A stretch of DNA of 64,000 nucleotides from Pirellula sp. Lineage in GTDB: Bacteria; Planctomycetota; Planctomycetia; Pirellulales; PNKZ01. Each line of letters starts with the position of its first letter. Position 1 is the stretch's first letter. The DNA lies in contig PNKZ01000007.1 in assembly GCA_013822735.1 (NCBI GenBank), positions 186,001-250,000 on the forward strand, given 5' to 3'. Below are positions 38,404 to 47,463 of this stretch, piece after piece. A program made the position numbers and the translations under genes. Under the pieces are notes generated by a model. That model was given only the letters and a program-made list of their open reading frames with translations. It ran no database searches and was not told the origin of the DNA.

Positions 38404-38474
38404 TACCCGATGGTGTAATGGTAACACTGGAGATTTTGGCTCTCCCATTCTAGGTTCGAATCCTAGTCGGGTAG
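38404..38474 (+). tRNA. tRNA-Gln (anticodon UUG)
   Basis: A complete cloverleaf is visible. The acceptor stem TACCCGA (38404-38410) pairs with TCGGGTA (38467-38473), the D-arm region has TGGTGTAATGGTAACA, the anticodon stem GGAGA/TCTCC encloses the loop TTTTGGC with anticodon TTG, and the T-arm has GGTTCGAATCC. CCA is not encoded. A strong terminator follows 11 bases later. Confidence 0.96.
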
Positions 38475-38484
38475 TTCAGTAAAA

Positions 38485-38520
38485 CGGCCCGCGTTCCCGC
38501 AACGGAACGCGGGCCGCTTT
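38485..38520 (+). terminator. rho-independent terminator after tRNA-Gln
   Basis: A 13-bp perfect stem (38485-38497 with 38504-38516, loop CGCAAC) is followed by CTTTCGTT, directly after the tRNA gene. Confidence 0.8.
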
Positions 38521-38624
38521 CGTTGGCGGGTCGCCGATGCCTGACCCGAGAGAGTCGCAACGTTTTGCCGACCGGTCTATGATGCGTCGGCGTAACGTCG
38601 CCGTGGTTCGGAAATCTTCGGCTA

Positions 38625-39854
38625 ATGAAATCAACTGTCGAAAGCACGCTTACGGCAGAACCATCGCCCCCGGCTGAAGCGACATCGCACGAACCAAGTC
38701 ATCGCGCTTTCTATTTGGACGTCGTTCGCGGTTTCGCCGTCTTGCTCGTGCTGGGGCGCCACTGTCCCGCAAACATACGTATCCATCCCGCATTGGATAC
38801 GATTTCCGACATACTTCACCAGGTCGGCTATTTGGGCGTCGACTTATTTTTCGTACTGAGCGGCTACCTGATCGGCGGGCTGCTCTTCAAGGAACTGGAT
38901 CGCACCGGCACCATCGGACTCCGACGATTCTTCGTTCGGCGCGCGTTTAAGATCTGGCCGGCCTACTTGATCTGCTTGACTGCGAGCTGCCTGGCGCTCG
39001 CCTTTTTCGACAAGCGATTCGTAGCAAACGAGCAGCCTTTGGAGTCGGTTGCACGCCTGATGTGGCCGGCGTTTCTTCATATTCAGAACTACTTCCCTTC
39101 GACTCGCGTTCTAAGTTTCCTTTGGAGCCTGGCGGTCGAAGAGCACTTCTATTTGTTACTGCCTGCCGCACTGTTGCTCATGCGACGCGGCTCGCGAAGC
39201 GGCAATATTTGCTACCGAGTGCTGCTCACCTTCTTAGCCTTGGCCATGACTTGCCTGCTTTTACGCTTCGCGGCACGGGAAGCAAATCCCGTGTTCAGCA
39301 GCTACGCAAATCTGTTTCCAACGCACCTCAGGATCGACTCCCTCATGGCGGGAGTCGCGCTCGTCGCGACGACTCGATACTGCCCAAATCTTACGGAGAG
39401 GTTGCGACCTACTCGTTGGCCCGCATTGCTCATCGGCGTCGCACTATTGCTGCTCCCGTGGTTTTTCCCTCCTTTGCCCCCCGGCAAGTATCCGGTTATT
39501 TATCCCGTGGAATTCAGCATGTTCAGCGGAGTTCTTTTCGTCGCGGCCGCACACTACGCCGATCATCCGGCATCTTCGAGCGCCGTTGCGCAGCGACTTC
39601 GAAAACTCTTGGCGCCCGTGGCAGCTGTCGGAGTCGTTAGTTACTCGACCTATTTGTGGCACGGGTACTTCGCGCCACCGATCTCGGCGCGCGTGATGCA
39701 CTTCTTCCATGTCCCCGTTTCTGGGAGCGGATTGTCGACGGTAGTCCACTATGCGTGCTATGTGGTTGTGGCGCTTGCCATGGGCATTGCGTCGTACTAC
39801 GTAATCGAGCGTCCATTTCTGGCTTTGCGCGAGCACGTCGCCAAGCGGCCCTAG
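38625..39854 (+). CDS. acyltransferase 3 family membrane protein
   Basis: Integral membrane O-acyltransferase of the OafA/YrhL type, which adds acetyl or similar groups to extracytoplasmic sugars. The 409 residues start with a short cytoplasmic part and then the family motif FYLDVVRGFAVLLVLGRHC (His near residue 46), then YLGVDLFFVLSGYLIGGLLFKEL and RRFFVRRAFKIWPAYLICL. About ten helices follow; SLAVEEHFYLLLPAALLL (near residue 168) is the second conserved motif. Its codon use and lower GC look a little different from its neighbours, so recent transfer is possible. The substrate is unknown; no polysaccharide cluster is adjacent. Confidence 0.88.
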   Translation: MKSTVESTLTAEPSPPAEATSHEPSHRAFYLDVVRGFAVLLVLGRHCPANIRIHPALDTISDILHQVGYLGVDLFFVLSGYLIGGLLFKELDRTGTIGLRRFFVRRAFKIWPAYLICLTASCLALAFFDKRFVANEQPLESVARLMWPAFLHIQNYFPSTRVLSFLWSLAVEEHFYLLLPAALLLMRRGSRSGNICYRVLLTFLALAMTCLLLRFAAREANPVFSSYANLFPTHLRIDSLMAGVALVATTRYCPNLTERLRPTRWPALLIGVALLLLPWFFPPLPPGKYPVIYPVEFSMFSGVLFVAAAHYADHPASSSAVAQRLRKLLAPVAAVGVVSYSTYLWHGYFAPPISARVMHFFHVPVSGSGLSTVVHYACYVVVALAMGIASYYVIERPFLALREHVAKRP

Positions 39855-40088
39855 TTCCATCGATGGGCGAACGTCGGGCTGTCCACAGCTCGCCACAACC
39901 CGAACAAACAGAGTCGGATCACGACAGGGCCCGCATAAGCCACGGCCTGAGTCGCTTGTTGCAATTACTTGAATCCAGGCGTAGTCTCCGGACCGCGAGC
40001 GATTCCCGCAAATTGCCGCACAATACTCAGCCGCTTCGTTCGCGGAGGTATACTTCGTCGCATCGCCACCCCATTTCAAGGAACTGCC

Positions 40089-40553
40089 ATGAAACAAAAC
40101 TTCATCTTGAGTCTCGCCGTCGGATTGCTTGTCGTATCGGGCGTCGTCGGCTGTCAGCCTGCCGGCGAAGCGAAGAAGACCGCTCCCGACGACCTGAAGA
40201 ACGTGGAAGGAGCCTGGACCTTGGTGAGCGGCGAAGTCGACGGCACGGCGATTCCTGAACAAGAGGTCAAGAACGCCAAGCTCACCATTGTGGGCGACCA
40301 GTACACGGTCGACTTGGGAGAGAAAGGCGTGAAGAAGGGAACTCAAAAGCTCGATGCGACGAAGACCCCCAAGCAGATCGACGCGAAGGACACCGAAGGT
40401 CCGACGGTCGGCGAAAACCACGGCATCTACGAGTTCACGGCCGACGGCGACTTCCGCGTCTGCTTTGCGGCCCCGGGAAAAGAGCGGCCCATCGCGTTTG
40501 TGACAAAGCCCGGCAGCGGACACTTCATGCATTTGTGGAAACGCGCCAAGTAA
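40089..40553 (+). CDS. TIGR03067-type planctomycete lipoprotein
   Basis: 154-residue predicted lipoprotein belonging to a family that is greatly expanded in planctomycetes (TIGR03067). ATG 40089 has AAGGA six bases upstream. The signal peptide ends with the lipobox SGVVGC (Cys about residue 21). The domain shows the family hallmarks NVEGAWTLVSGEVDGTAIPEQEVKN, KLTIVGDQYTVDLGEKG, LDATKTPKQIDA and GIYEFTADGDFRVCFAAPGKERP. The fold is probably a lipocalin-like barrel, with unknown ligand. A strong terminator follows. Confidence 0.88.
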   Translation: MKQNFILSLAVGLLVVSGVVGCQPAGEAKKTAPDDLKNVEGAWTLVSGEVDGTAIPEQEVKNAKLTIVGDQYTVDLGEKGVKKGTQKLDATKTPKQIDAKDTEGPTVGENHGIYEFTADGDFRVCFAAPGKERPIAFVTKPGSGHFMHLWKRAK

Positions 40554-40572
40554 GCTGATGAAGTGCCAAGAT

Positions 40573-40610
40573 AGCCAAGCCCACGGGTTCGATTCCGTGG
40601 GCTTGGCTTT
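40573..40610 (+). terminator. rho-independent terminator of the TIGR03067 gene
   Basis: A 14-bp perfect stem AGCCAAGCCCACGG (40573-40586) with CCGTGGGCTTGGCT (40595-40608) and an eight-base loop is followed by TT, then GG. The T-run is short, so it may work in part as a barrier to convergent transcription from the minus strand. Confidence 0.65.
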
Positions 40611-40683
40611 GGCCGGCGAGTCAATGACTAAGCGTTGACGCGGTCCGCGTTTTCCTTCGCGTGCAACTTCGCACATGGCAATG

Positions 40684-42029
40684 CTAAATGCGATCGGATT
40701 TTACCAAGTTGCATTTCCGGCAAAGCAACTGCACGTTTCGCTCGTCGTTGCTCCCTCCCTTGGCAACCGGGATAATGTGGTCATACTCGAGGTATTGATC
40801 CGATTTACAGTCGGCGCAGCGACCGCCATAGGCTTGCCAGACCCGTTGGCGCACGTCGCGTGCAATATGCCGGCCGGGCAATTCGGTGATCTTTTGCACG
40901 ATCGTCTGATTCGCGCGCCCCACGGCAGTCCGCAGAATCGCCGTGGCAACGGCCGGATTGCCTCGAAATAAATACTCGCCCGCTCCTTTCGCGGAACTGC
41001 GAATCTCGACGCCGAAGGTATTCGGCAAACAGCCGATGATGTTTCGCAGGTTGACGGTAAACGTCTTTCCCGCCGAGCAGAAGATAAAGCGAGAATCCGT
41101 TACAAGACATACGCCCTGGAACGACTCGACGCGAGGGCCGCTTTTCAGCATCTTCGTCGTCCGAAAGATCGATTCCTCGACGTGATGCAGGATTTCTCCC
41201 GCACGAAGTTCGACCGTCGAATTATTTTTCAACGACGGCAAGATTCCGTTCGCGGCGTTCGCCAGGATGCGAAGGACGAGAATTTCACTCTGCACGTAAG
41301 CGACAAACTCGGCCGGAAGCACAAATGCCTCTAACAGCCAATTAAGCAGCGCATCTTCTTCCGGGCTGAAGACTTCGTCGGCCTTCGCGCCAATACCTGT
41401 TCGACAAACACCTGCGCCTGAGGCTGAAGCATCTTCAACAGTTCCTCGCGCCCCACTCCCAGCTGTTCGGCCGTTTTCCAAAGACGTTGCCATTCGAACT
41501 GGGAAATCTCACCGTCGCGAATGATGACGGCGAAGAGATCCCGGAACAGAGAGTCGGCCGACTCGGAGCAATACGCGCGAAACAAGAGCGGGACCGTCGA
41601 GTGCACGGACTTCGCGATACCGTCGAGGCGCGCGTATTCGGCATCCGTGATCATGCCGTCGTCCAAGGCGTCGACAAACGCCTTTTCAAACCGGTCTTTG
41701 GCAAATTGGCCGTGAATGCGCGAGACGACGGCGGATGAGAGCTGGAGTGCCTCGCCGAGCCACTGCAAGGTCTTCAACTCTTCCTGACGCACGGTGTCGT
41801 CGGCCCAGGCTTTAGTGAGGACGTGGCGAAAAACGCGCTCCTTCACCTCTTGTAACTCGGGTCCGGAAACACGCTGCAGCAACGGCGACTTTTCCAACGA
41901 AAAGCCGCGTCCCGCCTTGGCGACCTCTTGGTGCAGGATCGCCGTATTCTTCTCGACGCGAGCCTCACGCTCCGGATCGAGCAAGGAGACGACCCCTTTC
42001 AGAAATCGCTTCGCAAACTCTGCCGCCAT
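40684..42029 (-). pseudogene. TerB-like / PH-like / HNH endonuclease gene split by a frameshift
   Basis: One gene read in two frames. From ATG 42029 (AGGAGG ribosome-binding site upstream) the first frame runs to a stop at 41331. Near 41386-41400 the sense continues in the -1 frame to 40684, where the spliced product would be about 450 residues. The N-terminal part has TerB-like helical repeats (DDGMITDAEYARLDGIAKSV, RDGEISQFEWQRLWKTAEQ, and after the shift VFSPEEDALLNWLLEAFVL). A middle segment looks PH/GRAM-like (CLVTDSRFIFCSAGKTFTV). The C-terminus is an HNH nuclease: CADCKSDQYLEYDHIIPVAKGG then QLLCRKCN. A single missing base explains the break. It could be an authentic lesion, a sequencing error, or less likely programmed frameshifting. 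TerB and HNH domains often occur in defence or conflict systems. Confidence 0.8.
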
Positions 42030-42220
42030 GTTCGCCTCCTGGAAAATGCCCTGCTGTTTTACAACGCGCCCCGAGGCGGTTCCAGCGAAGAAAGCCCGTT
42101 GACGACGGCCCACGAAGTAATCACCGTGACAATCCGCCGTAGAGTCTCGACAAATGCCGCTTCCGTTAGAATGGTCTACTATTGGCGAGATCGGCGAAAT
42201 CTGAGAGATCAACGCGACTT

Positions 42221-43159
42221 ATGAAACTTTGTCTTCCGACGCTCGTGATCCTGATTTGCTTCGCTCCGCTTACCAGTATCCAAGCGGTCGAACCGTCGCG
42301 GATCGTGCGCGACATCTGCTATAAGTCGACGCCCGAAGGTGACCTCTCGCTGGACCTTTACTACCCGGAGGGTGAACCGCGGGGCAAGTGTCCCCTGGTG
42401 GTTTACACGCATGGCGGCGGCTGGACGACGGGGAGCAAACGGAGCGCGCAAATCGGCGCGATGGTCCGAGCGGTCGACAAGCTTCTCGTGCAAGGCTTCT
42501 GCGTCGCTTCGGTCGACTATCGACTCTACGTCGAAGGAGGGCCGACGCGCGTGCGCGATTGCGTGGCCGATTGCAAAGACGCCGTGCGCTATCTGGCGCA
42601 ACGCGCAAATGAACTCCGCATTGACGCCGAACACGTTTTCACATTCGGCGACTCCGCGGGGGGGCACATTGCGCAGATGTTGTTGCTCTCGCCTGCCGCC
42701 GAGTTTCCGGAAGCCCCGGGGCGGGCAGCTGCGCCGTTCACGATGATCGCAGGCGTATCTTGGTACGGACCTTGTGATTTCGAGAAGACGGAACTCTTCC
42801 GAAGCGACGAGCAGACCCCCGTCCGCGATCGCTTCGAAGCCCGCATTCTACCGTCGGACGCCGACCCGAAAGACAAGCTTCGGCTCTATCGCGAGATCAG
42901 TCCCGTGAATTATCTGCGTGCCGAGAGTCGGCCGCTGTTGATGATTCAAGGAGATAAGGATACGACGATTCCGGTGCGGCACGCGCGCTACATGAAGGAA
43001 CGAGCCGATGCGGTCGGGGCGCCGGTCGATATCGTGGTCGTGGCAAACGCCGGGCACAACTGGCGCCGCGTCGACGCCGATATCGAGCCAAGTGTCGAAG
43101 AGATCGTCGAGAAGACGGCTTCGTTTCTCAAGCAAGAGCTCGAACGAAGTGCTCGATAA
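42221..43159 (+). CDS. secreted alpha/beta-hydrolase (carboxylesterase)
   Basis: Predicted secreted esterase of the BD-FAE / acetyl-esterase type. From ATG 42221, 312 residues with a signal peptide ending SIQA (about residue 21). The oxyanion-hole motif is YTHGGGWTTGSKRS (near residue 63), the nucleophile elbow is GDSAGGH (Ser near 145), the acid lies in LMIQGDKDTTIP (near 247) and the His in ANAGHNWR (about 277). DLYYPEGEPRGKCPLVVY is typical of such enzymes. An upstream in-frame start at 42182 overlaps no ribosome site and is rejected. Likely role: removal of acyl groups from polysaccharide or small esters. Confidence 0.88.
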   Translation: MKLCLPTLVILICFAPLTSIQAVEPSRIVRDICYKSTPEGDLSLDLYYPEGEPRGKCPLVVYTHGGGWTTGSKRSAQIGAMVRAVDKLLVQGFCVASVDYRLYVEGGPTRVRDCVADCKDAVRYLAQRANELRIDAEHVFTFGDSAGGHIAQMLLLSPAAEFPEAPGRAAAPFTMIAGVSWYGPCDFEKTELFRSDEQTPVRDRFEARILPSDADPKDKLRLYREISPVNYLRAESRPLLMIQGDKDTTIPVRHARYMKERADAVGAPVDIVVVANAGHNWRRVDADIEPSVEEIVEKTASFLKQELERSAR

Positions 43160-43169
43160 CGGCCGCGAT

Positions 43170-44513
43170 CTACACGTCGGCGAGCACCCGTAGCGTTTCG
43201 TCGCAAAGACGCTGCGCTTCGGCCGCGGTCGGGGCTTCGGCGATGGCGCGGACGATCGGCTCCGTGTTGCTCGCGCGCACGAGCAACCACCGGCCGGGCC
43301 AATCGAGCCGCAGGCCGTCGAGCGTGTCGACCGCGGCGTCGTAGAAATGTTTGCGCAGTGCGGCGAGGCCCGCTTCGAGCTTCGCCGGCGGCAGCGTCAT
43401 CTTCGTCTTCACGATCTCGTAGCGCGGCAACGATGCGGCCCATCGGCTGAGCGTGCCGCCGCGCGCGGCAAGGCCGTCGAGCACCAGCGCCATGCCGAGG
43501 AAGCTGTCGCGCACATAGCCGACGCGCGGGTCGATCGGCCCGCCGTTCCCCTCGCCGCCGAAGACGGCGCGGCGCGCGATCATCTCGCCGGCGACGTTCG
43601 CTTCCCCGACGGCCGAGCGCGAGAACGAACAGCCGTACTTGGCGGCCAGGTCTTCGGTCATCCGACTTGTCGAGCAGTTCGTAACGACCGCGCCGGGTGT
43701 TTGCCCGAGCACATGGTCGACGCACATGGCGAGCGTGTACTCTTCGCCGATGTACCGGCCGCGCTCGTCGAGCAATGCGAGCCGGTCGGCGTCGGGATCT
43801 TGGCAGAATCCGACGTCGCAACCGGCTTCGGCAATCGCCGAGCTGACGGATATCAGGTTCTCGGCCGTCGGCTCCGGAGGATGGGCAAAAAGGCCGTCGG
43901 GCGTGCCGCCGAGCAGTTCGATCTTGCAACCGAGGGCATCCAAGAGCGGCCAGCCCAGCACGCTTCCCGAGCCATGGTTCGAGTCGAGCAACACGCGAAA
44001 GCCCCGAGCCCGAATCGCCGCGACGTCGACCAAGGCCAGCACCTTCTGCAAGTGGGCCTCGATCGTGCCGTCGATGGCTTTCGCACTGCCTAAGCGTTCG
44101 CAACTCACTGAAATCGGGGAACCTCGGCGGTAGGCGTCGAGGACGCGCCCTCCAAATTCGGCGGGCACGACACGCCCCTCCGGCGAGAAGAGCTTCATCC
44201 CGTTGTATTGCGGCGGATTGTGACTGGCGGAAATCTGAATGCCGCCGGCCGCGTGCAGCTCGCGCACGAGTACGCCAGTGGTCGGCGTGGCCGCGATGCC
44301 GCCGTCGAGGCAGTCGCGCCCAAGTTTGGCGACCGTCTCGCAGATCACTTGGGCAAAGTCGGCGCCCGAGGCACGCCCGTCGCGCGTCACGACGATCGGC
44401 CCGACTTCCAACAGCGCGGCAAAGGCGGCCGTATAGTTCGCCGCCACGGCGGGCGTCAGGCTCTCGCCGACGATTCCTCGTAGTCCGCTCACGCTAATAA
44501 TGGGCTCGGGCAT
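43170..44513 (-). CDS. glmM: phosphoglucosamine mutase-like phosphohexomutase
   Basis: Alpha-D-phosphohexomutase, 447 residues. The phosphoserine motif is QISASHNPPQYNGMKLFSPEG (Ser about residue 99), the metal loop CQDPDADRLALLDERG (near 240), the sugar-specificity loop GGEGNGGPIDPRVGYVRD (near 320), and the phosphate-binding RASNTEPIVRAIAEA near the C-terminus. GlmM proteins have GEGNGG? or GEQSGH at the sugar loop; this variant also occurs in bacterial and archaeal GlmM/PMM enzymes, so substrate (glucosamine or mannose phosphate) is not certain. The ATG at 44513 gives the standard start. It is divergent from the larger mutase at 44691. Confidence 0.8.
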   Translation of the reverse strand: MPEPIISVSGLRGIVGESLTPAVAANYTAAFAALLEVGPIVVTRDGRASGADFAQVICETVAKLGRDCLDGGIAATPTTGVLVRELHAAGGIQISASHNPPQYNGMKLFSPEGRVVPAEFGGRVLDAYRRGSPISVSCERLGSAKAIDGTIEAHLQKVLALVDVAAIRARGFRVLLDSNHGSGSVLGWPLLDALGCKIELLGGTPDGLFAHPPEPTAENLISVSSAIAEAGCDVGFCQDPDADRLALLDERGRYIGEEYTLAMCVDHVLGQTPGAVVTNCSTSRMTEDLAAKYGCSFSRSAVGEANVAGEMIARRAVFGGEGNGGPIDPRVGYVRDSFLGMALVLDGLAARGGTLSRWAASLPRYEIVKTKMTLPPAKLEAGLAALRKHFYDAAVDTLDGLRLDWPGRWLLVRASNTEPIVRAIAEAPTAAEAQRLCDETLRVLADV

Positions 44514-44690: not shown

Positions 44691-46499
44691 ATGCCGCTCG
44701 ACATTGCCGCTCTTGAAACGTCCGTGAAACAAGCCGTCGGGCAAAAGCAACTGACGCAACCCGCCGCCGATAATATTCACATCTGGCTCACCGATCCGCG
44801 TTACGCACAGTATGCCGAGCAAGTGGCGGCGCATATAGCCAGCGGTCAATGGAAGGCCCTCGACGACGCCTTTTGGACGATCATCCCCTTCGGCACGGGC
44901 GGACGTCGCGGCAAGATGTACCCGATCGGCTGCAACGCCATCAACGACAGGACGATCGGCGAAAGCGCCCAAGGCCTGGCGACCTACGTAAAGAAGAATC
45001 TGCCGGCCGGCGCGACGCTCGCCTGCGCGATCGGCTACGACACGCGGCATCGCTCGCGGGAGTTCGCCGAACTTTGCTCCGAGATCATGGTCGCCAACGG
45101 CTTTCAGGTCTACTTCCTCGACGGCTACCGCAGCACGCCCGAGGTTTCGTACACGGTTCGCTATAAGAACTGCGTCTGCGGCATCATGGTCACGGCGAGC
45201 CACAATCCGCCGAGTGACAACGCCGTGAAGGCATATTGGGCCGGCGGCGTACAAGTGCTCCCGCCGCACGATAAGGGCGTGATCGATGAAGTGATGGCCT
45301 GTGCGTCGATCGCGCGCGTGCCGTTTGCCCAGGCGTTGGCGGAAGGTAAGGTCGTATACTGCCAACAGGAAGTCGACCCGGCCTATATTCAAGCGGTGCT
45401 CACGCAAAGCTTTGCCGGTCCGCGCGATTTGAAGATCATTTACTCGCCGCTGCACGGCGTCGGCGCGGCCACGGTGATGCCGATCCTCGAGAAGGACGGC
45501 TTTGCGAACGTCGAACTCTATGGCCCGCATGCCGAACCGAACGGCGACTTTCCCAACGTGCCGGGACATGTGTCGAACCCGGAAAATCCGCAAGTGTTCG
45601 ACGCCATGATCGAACGGGCCAAGCAAACCGGCGCGGAACTGATCCTCGCGACCGATCCCGATGCCGACCGCGTCGGCTGTGCCGCCCCCACGAAGACCGG
45701 CGGCCCTTGGAAGACGCTTACCGGCAACCAGATCGGCGTGCTACTGGCCGACTACGTGCTCGAGCGCCGCAAAGCAGCGGGCTCGCTGTCGCCGCAGCAT
45801 TACGTGGCGAAGACGATCGTCACGACGGAAATGATCCGCCGCATCGCCGAAAGTTACGGAGTTCGAACGATCGGCGATCTGCATGTCGGCTTCAAATGGA
45901 TCGGCCGCACGATCGATGCCGAAGGCCCCGGAGGCTTCGTGCTCGGTACGGAAGAATCGCACGGCTACCTCACCGGTACGCACGCCCGCGATAAAGACGC
46001 CGCGGTCGCCGCGATGCTGTTGGCCGAACTCGCGGCCCGCGTGAAGTCGGAAGGTAAGACGCTGCACCAAAAGCTCGAATCGCTCTTCTGGCAGCATGGT
46101 TGTCACGTCGAACGGCTCTACAACCAAAGCCTTCCCGGCAGCGAGGGGATGGCAACGATGCGGAAACTTATGGAAAAGCTCCGCACGGCGCCGCCGGCCG
46201 AACTGGGCGGCCTCAGAGTGCGGCAGGCCCGCGATTACCTCAATCTCACGATCAAGAGCCCCGACGGCCAGTCGAAGCCGCTCGCCGAGGAAAAGGGAGA
46301 CATGATCGTGCTCGACTTCGCCGACGAAGGGAATTTCGTCGCCGTGCGTCCGTCAGGCACCGAGCCGAAAGTAAAGTATTACATGTTCGCCTACGAGCCG
46401 GCCGAACAACTTCACAACCTCGACGACGCGCGAGCCGAGCTCGAAGCCCGACTCACGCGCATCGAAACAGACTTCCAAGCCCTGGCGGCATCGCTATAG
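44691..46499 (+). CDS. phospho-sugar mutase (phosphoglucomutase-type)
   Basis: 602-residue alpha-D-phosphohexomutase of the long bacterial phosphoglucomutase/phosphomannomutase type (PgcA-like), linking glucose-6-P and glucose-1-P. Motifs: active Ser in GIMVTASHNPPSDNAVKAYW (about residue 168), metal loop LATDPDADRVGCAAP (near 321), sugar loop GTEESHGYLTGTHARDKDAAVAAMLL (near 423-445), and phosphate-binding VRPSGTEPKVKYYMF near 555-570. The extra length lies in the N-terminal 60 residues and in a segment before the C-terminal domain. It is transcribed away from the smaller mutase with 177 bases between start codons. Confidence 0.9.
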   Translation: MPLDIAALETSVKQAVGQKQLTQPAADNIHIWLTDPRYAQYAEQVAAHIASGQWKALDDAFWTIIPFGTGGRRGKMYPIGCNAINDRTIGESAQGLATYVKKNLPAGATLACAIGYDTRHRSREFAELCSEIMVANGFQVYFLDGYRSTPEVSYTVRYKNCVCGIMVTASHNPPSDNAVKAYWAGGVQVLPPHDKGVIDEVMACASIARVPFAQALAEGKVVYCQQEVDPAYIQAVLTQSFAGPRDLKIIYSPLHGVGAATVMPILEKDGFANVELYGPHAEPNGDFPNVPGHVSNPENPQVFDAMIERAKQTGAELILATDPDADRVGCAAPTKTGGPWKTLTGNQIGVLLADYVLERRKAAGSLSPQHYVAKTIVTTEMIRRIAESYGVRTIGDLHVGFKWIGRTIDAEGPGGFVLGTEESHGYLTGTHARDKDAAVAAMLLAELAARVKSEGKTLHQKLESLFWQHGCHVERLYNQSLPGSEGMATMRKLMEKLRTAPPAELGGLRVRQARDYLNLTIKSPDGQSKPLAEEKGDMIVLDFADEGNFVAVRPSGTEPKVKYYMFAYEPAEQLHNLDDARAELEARLTRIETDFQALAASL

Positions 46500-46520
46500 C
46501 GAACCGTTCGCGATCCGCTT

Positions 46521-46600
46521 CCCCTCTCCCCATGCATGCGGGAGAGGCCGTGTCCGATTTCCCCTCTCCCCTTGCGGGAGAGGGGCTAGGGGTGAGGGGT
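46521..46600. repeat. CCCCTCTCCC...GGGAGAGG hairpin repeats
   Basis: Two hairpins in tandem: CCCCTCTCCC with GGGAGAGG at 46521-46547, and CCCCTCTCCC with GGGAGAGGGG at 46561-46585, the second followed by a CTAGGGGTGAGGGG tail. This type of C/T-rich hairpin is common between genes in many bacteria. It separates the convergent mutase and isomerase genes. Confidence 0.8.
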
Positions 46601-46614
46601 CAATCGCGAAAAGA

Positions 46615-47463
46615 CTACGCCGAAACGGCCTTCGCCACGGTCCGCGCCACTTCCAGGCATTCCTTGATGTCGGCAATCGGATCTTTCGGGTTCTCTTCGT
46701 ACTCTAGCGAGAGTGCCCCGTCGGCCGGGAACTTCACTTCGCGCAATGCGACAAACACTTGTTCGACGTTCATGTGTCCCTTGCCGAGGATCACGCCGTG
46801 CGTCTTATCCTGCATCTCGGCAAAGTCCTTGAGGTGCACGCCGTACAGACGCCCCTTCAGGGCCCGAATGACGTCTTCCGGCTTCTCGCCCGAGCGAATG
46901 TAGTGTCCTAGGTCGGCGCAGGCGCCAATTCGTTCGTCATGCCCTTCAATCGCTTGTAACGTGTCGACGACTTTGTTGTAGCGATGCTTCGGGCCGTGGT
47001 TGTGGATTCCGACGCGGATGTCGTATTCCTTCACCAGCGAGTCGAGGCTTTCAAACGAATCGGGATCCGGATCGGCCGTGATGTTGCGAATGCCCGCCGC
47101 CTTCGCGAAGGCAAAGAGCTTCTTGTTCTTCTCGTGGTCTTTGGTGAGCCGATTAACGCCGTGGGCCGAGATGACTTGGCCGTAGCCTTCGAGCTTTTCC
47201 TTGAGCGCGGCAATTTGCTCCGGTGTGCTGTCGACGCTGAACATGCCGGGATAAAACTCGATATGGCTGACGTCGAGGTCGTGGCACTTGAGCAGCGCGT
47301 CGTCGACCGGAAAGCTGCGGAGCGAGTAGATCTGCAGACCGACATTGAATCCTTCGAACTCCGCGGCACGCAACGTGCGAACGAGAAACGAAGAAGCAAC
47401 AACGCCGCCGACGGCGACCGCGGATTGCTGCAAGAAACGACGACGAGCGATGGGCGACTTCAT
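46615..47463 (-). CDS. Tat-exported sugar isomerase/epimerase-like TIM-barrel protein
   Basis: 282-residue protein of the xylose-isomerase-like TIM barrel superfamily. From ATG 47463 it starts with a twin-arginine signal (PIARRRFLQQSAVAVGG, residues 4-20), so it is exported folded. The barrel shows GLQIYSLRSF, HIEFYPGMFS, ISAHGVNRL, GIHNHGPKHRYN (metal-type His/Asn), GACADLGHYIRSGE, YGVHLKDFAE and GALSLEYEENPKDP, giving the usual Glu/Asp/His metal ligands. Such Tat-exported members are frequent in planctomycetes and are mostly uncharacterised. An upstream in-frame ATG at 47577 lacks support. Confidence 0.88.
   Translation of the reverse strand: MKSPIARRRFLQQSAVAVGGVVASSFLVRTLRAAEFEGFNVGLQIYSLRSFPVDDALLKCHDLDVSHIEFYPGMFSVDSTPEQIAALKEKLEGYGQVISAHGVNRLTKDHEKNKKLFAFAKAAGIRNITADPDPDSFESLDSLVKEYDIRVGIHNHGPKHRYNKVVDTLQAIEGHDERIGACADLGHYIRSGEKPEDVIRALKGRLYGVHLKDFAEMQDKTHGVILGKGHMNVEQVFVALREVKFPADGALSLEYEENPKDPIADIKECLEVARTVAKAVSA

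Follow-up and report, generated by a model that had tools for sequence, protein, structure and literature searches.

The molecular function of the ter genes is a puzzle of long standing. As outlined in PMC7824862 and PMC11090510, Ter-dependent stress and defence systems comprise TerB, TerC, TerD and TerF together with PRTase, HAD, and ATP-grasp proteins. Shango and Bunzi, two systems tested against phages, contain TerB domains as well, and Shango lowers phage plating (PMC10952713, PMC10250203). Given this occurrence of TerB, a conflict role is plausible for a protein combining TerB, PH, and HNH domains. Proteins of this kind have so far been annotated as "TerD family protein" (NCBI) or by matches to generic HNH or TerB models. 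Our literature search found no paper joining TerB or TerD with HNH and PH domains, and the 2012 ter survey (Anantharaman et al.) may mention such fusions.

The window analysed here is a stretch of 64,000 nucleotides from contig PNKZ01000007.1 of Pirellula sp. It contains two minus-strand ORFs, running from 42029 to 40684, which overlap by about 160 nucleotides, the second being in the -1 frame relative to the first. This TerB-PH-HNH locus is single copy in the 6.88-Mb genome, and its features are the following:

42030..42045, minus strand: AGGAGG ribosome-binding site upstream of the ATG, read from the sequence
42029-41331, minus strand: first ORF, 232 aa, ATG behind AGGAGG, Pfam TerB
41391..42029, minus strand: first half of the broken gene, TerB-like hairpins 1-3 (ORF, Pfam, and homologue alignment)
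41804-41778, 41663-41637, 41519-41493, minus strand: acidic loops of hairpins 1-3, about 48 residues apart
41389..41390, minus strand: frame break in the fourth TerB-like hairpin, in the conserved HxLADAKxD motif
41331..41390, minus strand: out-of-frame tail of the first ORF, up to the stop codon (ORF call)
41323..41388, minus strand: remaining part of TerB-like hairpin 4, encoded in the second frame (alignment, coordinate mapping)
41493-40684, minus strand: second ORF, 269 aa, HNH at the C-terminal end
40888..41247, minus strand: PH-fold domain (residues 281-374 of the model of homologue L024, Foldseek PH matches)
40687..40872, minus strand: HNH nuclease domain, CxxC...DH...N...CxxC complete (Pfam HNH)
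40573..40608, no strand: perfect inverted repeat of 14 bp, situated where the nuclease gene and the ORF at 39969-40553 converge, likely a bidirectional terminator
38476..43171, no strand: variable spot, flanked by tRNA-Gln and a rex-type regulator and by a phosphoglucomutase/phosphomannomutase-family gene
38404-38474: tRNA-Gln, at the edge of the variable spot

The initial annotation, made from the letters of the DNA, had read the two overlapping ORFs as one protein with a strong AGGAGG start and an intact HNH motif at its end. Both halves match the same single-frame homologues, far beyond chance, the ATG at 42029 is preceded by AGGAGG, and all HNH residues are present. Pfam HNH (PF01844) was found in the second piece with E=5e-12 and 46.2 bits, compared with a curated cut-off of 21.4, and TerB (PF05099) in the first piece with E=2.4e-5, a borderline pass at 25.0 bits against a cut-off of 24.4. 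No homologue in the family alignment matches the out-of-frame tail of the first ORF, and the inverted repeat behind the gene was not picked up by a scan for T-run terminators.

An AlphaFold2 model of the intact homologue L024 (449 aa, pLDDT 89) contains four TerB-like hairpins, a PH fold, and a C-terminal HNH domain. The hairpins, each built from a long and a short helix, follow one another at about 48 residues, and each carries an acidic loop with a consensus of roughly D-[DGN]-x-[IVL]-x-x-x-E; a helix behind them leads into the PH fold (residues 281-374), which has seven strands and a C-terminal helix in the secondary structure of the model and is followed by HNH. The first half of the window gene aligns to residues 1-211 of the intact homologues, with its acidic loops at residues 76-84, 123-131, and 171-179 and the fourth directly past the break. 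A profile search returned TerB (2ou3), Tic110 (4bm5, helical), HNH (4h9d), and McrA (6ghc), and Foldseek matched the middle part to PH domains (4tyz, TMt 0.57; ASAP1, 5c79, TMt 0.62). Pfam bPH_3 alone stays below its cut-off (E=0.12 on the window), the PH assignment resting on the model and Foldseek. Foldseek also returned full-length DH-PH matches, whose TM-scores near 0.2 reflect helices plus a PH domain and not homology. As modelled, the intact protein begins with four helical hairpins that are EF-hand-like or TerB-like and continues with a PH fold and the HNH tip, in agreement with the three domains named in the initial annotation.

Among 397 genomes of the same order, 15 encode the protein in a single open frame of about 450 codons, several of them being single-contig genomes, and the window copy is the only full-length one in this sample that is split into two pieces in different frames. 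Approximately 18 near-full-length Planctomycetota loci were found in an independent collection. In the family alignment, the zinc-binding and catalytic residues of HNH are nearly invariant. Some intact homologues score below the TerB cut-off, and the Blastopirellula locus L050 reaches 47.5 bits.

Between the anchors FVEHVL and KAD, 18 of 18 intact homologues have 27 nucleotides and the window has 23. The window is therefore 4 nucleotides short at about 41389-41390 relative to these homologues, with a net frame effect of -1; the one-base shift proposed earlier for 41386-41400 was correctly placed but wrong in size. The overlap of the frames and the -1 position of the second might suggest that the ORFs are separate genes, or that a single protein arises from them through programmed -1 frameshifting or phase variation. 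This is very improbable: every other full-length homologue found is in one frame, except for a differently broken copy in a Planctomycetaceae MAG (L042), and the break cuts a conserved hairpin. The stretch searched holds a single slippery-type heptamer, TTTCCCA (phase 1, gene position 523), some 115 nucleotides ahead of the break, with none near it, and no tandem repeat was found at the break, which makes a programmed shift or phase variation unlikely and leaves the earlier suggestion of a phase-variable gene unsupported. The ratio of N-half to C-half identity is 0.63 in the window and 0.65 ± 0.09 in intact pairs, and since the halves are no more diverged than those of intact pairs, the break either happened recently or reflects faulty assembly. 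An error of assembly or sequencing in a gene that is intact in the organism would also fit the preserved start site and HNH residues and the draft state of the genome (38 contigs). Typical indel errors are single bases in homopolymers, whereas here 4 nucleotides are missing at a site that is neither homopolymer nor tandem repeat, and two relatives carry breaks from other lesions, so that we consider an error unlikely, while giving it real weight. The other possibility raised in the initial annotation, inactivation, is supported by a frame split, in a draft assembly, where homologues keep one frame, and the window copy is probably frame-broken and inactive.

The two relatives differ from the window in their lesions. 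L042 is 1 nucleotide short at another site, in the PH region, and in G461 (L177:1506-1835) only the first 60 or so codons and the HNH tip are left, abutting each other, about 1.03 kb of internal sequence being deleted in comparison with the homologue L027. As assembled, the gene is thus broken at least three times by different lesions. All three cases come from draft assemblies, in which an error may look like a small lesion; errors do not typically take the form of a 1-kb deletion. The distribution of the copies is patchy, and the gene is absent from six of six other genomes of the window's family. A different kind of change was observed in Blastopirellula, where L050 (9950-10915), G020, G392, G441, and G477 have an open frame that keeps the TerB-like array and is without the PH domain. 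Where it was read, the catalytic DH of HNH is replaced by VR in these forms, and they are possibly nuclease-dead derivatives that have been repurposed.

The genomic position of the window copy was compared with three congeners, whose homology to the window extends up to 38476 and resumes at 43171, the end of the phosphoglucomutase/phosphomannomutase-family gene. In the window, the 4.7 kb in between contain an acyltransferase, a small uncharacterised ORF, the nuclease, and an esterase, and in the congeners the spot measures 2.1, 1.6, and 0.75 kb and holds other genes, different in each, which makes the nuclease gene accessory cargo at a variable spot. No flanking direct repeats (attachment sites) were found around the spot, and no integrase was noticed within it. 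Elsewhere in the window, a short repeat at 46504-46616, in the stretch that follows a 602-aa sugar-phosphate mutase gene, recurs dozens of times across the genome and in congeners, with many 40-nt matches at ≥90%. A tRNA-Gly predicted at 45521-45620, on the other strand inside the phosphoglucomutase-like ORF (44691-46499), is probably a false prediction.

To learn about the wider family, one genome per species was searched, which yielded 80 loci. Outside the Planctomycetota, the proteins share HNH, the PH fold, and the final one or two of the TerB-like hairpins with the planctomycete form, a core that was detected in Chloroflexota, Nocardia, Acinetobacter, Thiospirillum, and Deinococcus. When an HMM was built from just the PH region of the planctomycete proteins, it recovered all 20 of the differently headed proteins tested (E 1e-14 to 1e-4; best value in a shuffled control 0.27), indicating one homologous core rather than chance reuse of HNH. 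Pfam identified a TerD end in Nocardia, Gordonia, Protofrankia, Acinetobacter, Thiospirillum, and Deinococcus, an FHA end in Armatimonadetes, a GYF_2 end in Luteolibacter, and a TPR end in Chloroflexota; zinc-ribbon-like CxxC pairs occur at the N-terminus in Herpetosiphon and others. The model of a TerD-headed Thiospirillum protein (AF2, pLDDT 82) has the same order of helices, PH, and HNH as L024. In the tree, the window groups with the planctomycete TerB-array branch (93/99, slightly under the starred level), and the inner branches are weak. IscB/Cas9 was also considered as a related group and rejected, since the NCBIfam similarity is limited to HNH and far below the cut-offs.

The surroundings of the relatives are diverse. 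On plasmid pRadio2 of D. radiophilus (L157:127-12202), a TerD-TerB-PH-HNH gene belongs to a complete ter cluster such as PMC7824862 describes. It stands first in a series that comprises three TerD genes, one VWA gene, and one DUF475 gene and that faces a run of ATP-grasp, phosphoribosyltransferase, HAD, AIM24, StiP-type, and HpcH genes. A similar full-length gene on a D. radiodurans replicon (L156:5992-7623) is located outside a ter cluster, and in three Nocardia loci a VWA-TerD gene is nearby. In an A. kyonggiensis prophage (L087:9347-10876, L106:7347-8876), a TerD-TerB-PH-HNH gene stands alone on the opposite strand of the tail module, between an anti-repressor gene and a tail-assembly-chaperone-like gene, with tape measure and head genes adjoining; a lone opposite-strand gene among prophage tail genes is in the classic accessory "moron" position. 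Around the planctomycete copies, no conserved partner gene emerged when 882 neighbour ORFs were clustered, and PADLOC and Pfam on 100 neighbours gave scattered matches only and no consistent defence island. Restriction-modification genes adjoin 2 of 21 planctomycete loci, and many loci are flanked by housekeeping genes.

We favour, with some confidence, the reading that the window holds a broken copy of a stand-alone, signal-gated TerB-PH-HNH nuclease, in which sensing by the N-terminal end, docking by the PH fold, and DNA cutting by HNH are the putative functions. The helical N-terminus, or a TerD, FHA, GYF, or TPR end adding to or replacing it, would sense a signal, for which a metal ion, a nucleotide-like ter metabolite, or a phosphoprotein are candidates; a metal or ligand might suit TerB and TerD, a phosphopeptide FHA, and the nucleotide-like ter metabolite could be what TerD-headed forms with a link to ter genes respond to. 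In the resting protein, the sensor would keep the HNH tip inactive and the PH fold would dock it to a partner or membrane. The signal would then free the tip to cut DNA, whether that of an invader or that of the stressed cell itself. A mis-triggered enzyme of this kind would be costly, which would explain repeated loss.

As to its role, the initial annotation had proposed a defence or DNA-damage nuclease. The D. radiophilus ter cluster and the A. kyonggiensis prophage make that class plausible, but the planctomycete copies have no consistent defence context: their neighbours, which it had asked to see, are not shared, and with so few restriction genes adjoining them, defence is no more than a possible role. 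The gene probably encodes a nuclease that acts in stress or against phages and has been little studied. A general stress or DNA-repair nuclease responding to metal, tellurite, radiation, or oxidative stress, and not to phage, is a serious alternative that we hold to be somewhat short of an even chance; it agrees with the TerB/TerD architecture, the ter-cluster member in a radiation-resistant Deinococcus, the D. radiodurans copy, the wide presence in Nocardia chromosomes, and the housekeeping flanks, whereas conflict genes more typically show patchy spread, a prophage copy, a place in a variable spot beside a tRNA, and recurrent inactivation. That the HNH tip is a selfish homing-type nuclease is scarcely credible, even though HNH domains are common in homing enzymes and one copy lies in a phage genome. 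In the branch studied, HNH forms the C-terminus of a sensor-PH protein that is large and conserved, full-length relatives are absent from 50,697 phage records, which gave only 60-residue HNH matches, and no intron or intein context was seen. The best reading for the kin of the window gene is a signal- or metal-gated stand-alone DNase of the Ter stress or conflict kind, its activity, ligand, and anti-phage role being putative.

A broader proposal, which we put forward tentatively and consider doubtful, is that TerB-PH-HNH forms an immune nuclease module in its own right, encoded by a single gene and fitted with interchangeable sensor ends (TerD, FHA, GYF, TPR, zinc ribbon, or TerB array). In this view, ter clusters, prophages, and variable spots of several phyla carry the module, which would have been lost repeatedly and would be an as yet unrecognised defence family. 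The joining of TerD and TerB to PH and HNH, once inside a ter cluster, points to DNA cutting as a testable output of ter. For biochemical work, the stand-alone planctomycete form is a compact variant, and the ends, being exchangeable, hint at a general design for signal-gated nucleases.

The described systems share parts with this gene. The PADLOC candidate PDC-S48 matches its TerB-like stretch (E=5e-13), and was rejected since the match covers TerB only, a part of the profile, with HNH and PH outside. Shango is a three-gene operon of TerB, ATPase, and helicase, while the window gene is a single gene with its own HNH nuclease; like Bunzi, Shango was not recovered at this locus, where the gene stands alone and has an acyltransferase, an esterase, an uncharacterised ORF, and housekeeping genes as neighbours. 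McrA-type HNH restriction nucleases (6ghc) have the C-terminal HNH motif and CxxC zinc sites in common with it, but the window family contains PH and TerB domains in place of a modified-base-binding domain, no such domain having been recognised. With Ter-dependent systems it has the TerB-like domain in common, and its sister form is genetically linked to them: TerC, TerD, or VWA genes and metabolite-synthesis genes are linked only to the D. radiophilus sister gene, no ter genes surround the window gene, and no TerD was found in its genome or in 57 relatives, so that the planctomycete form does not work together with a TerD-type ter system. The TerD-headed HNH proteins of D. radiophilus (WP_126352148.1) and D. 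radiodurans (WP_162177623.1) have the same core of TerB-like hairpins, PH, and HNH as the kin of the window gene. They begin with an N-terminal TerD beta-sandwich and can sit in a ter cluster, whereas the planctomycete form, in a genome without TerD, carries a longer TerB-like array instead.
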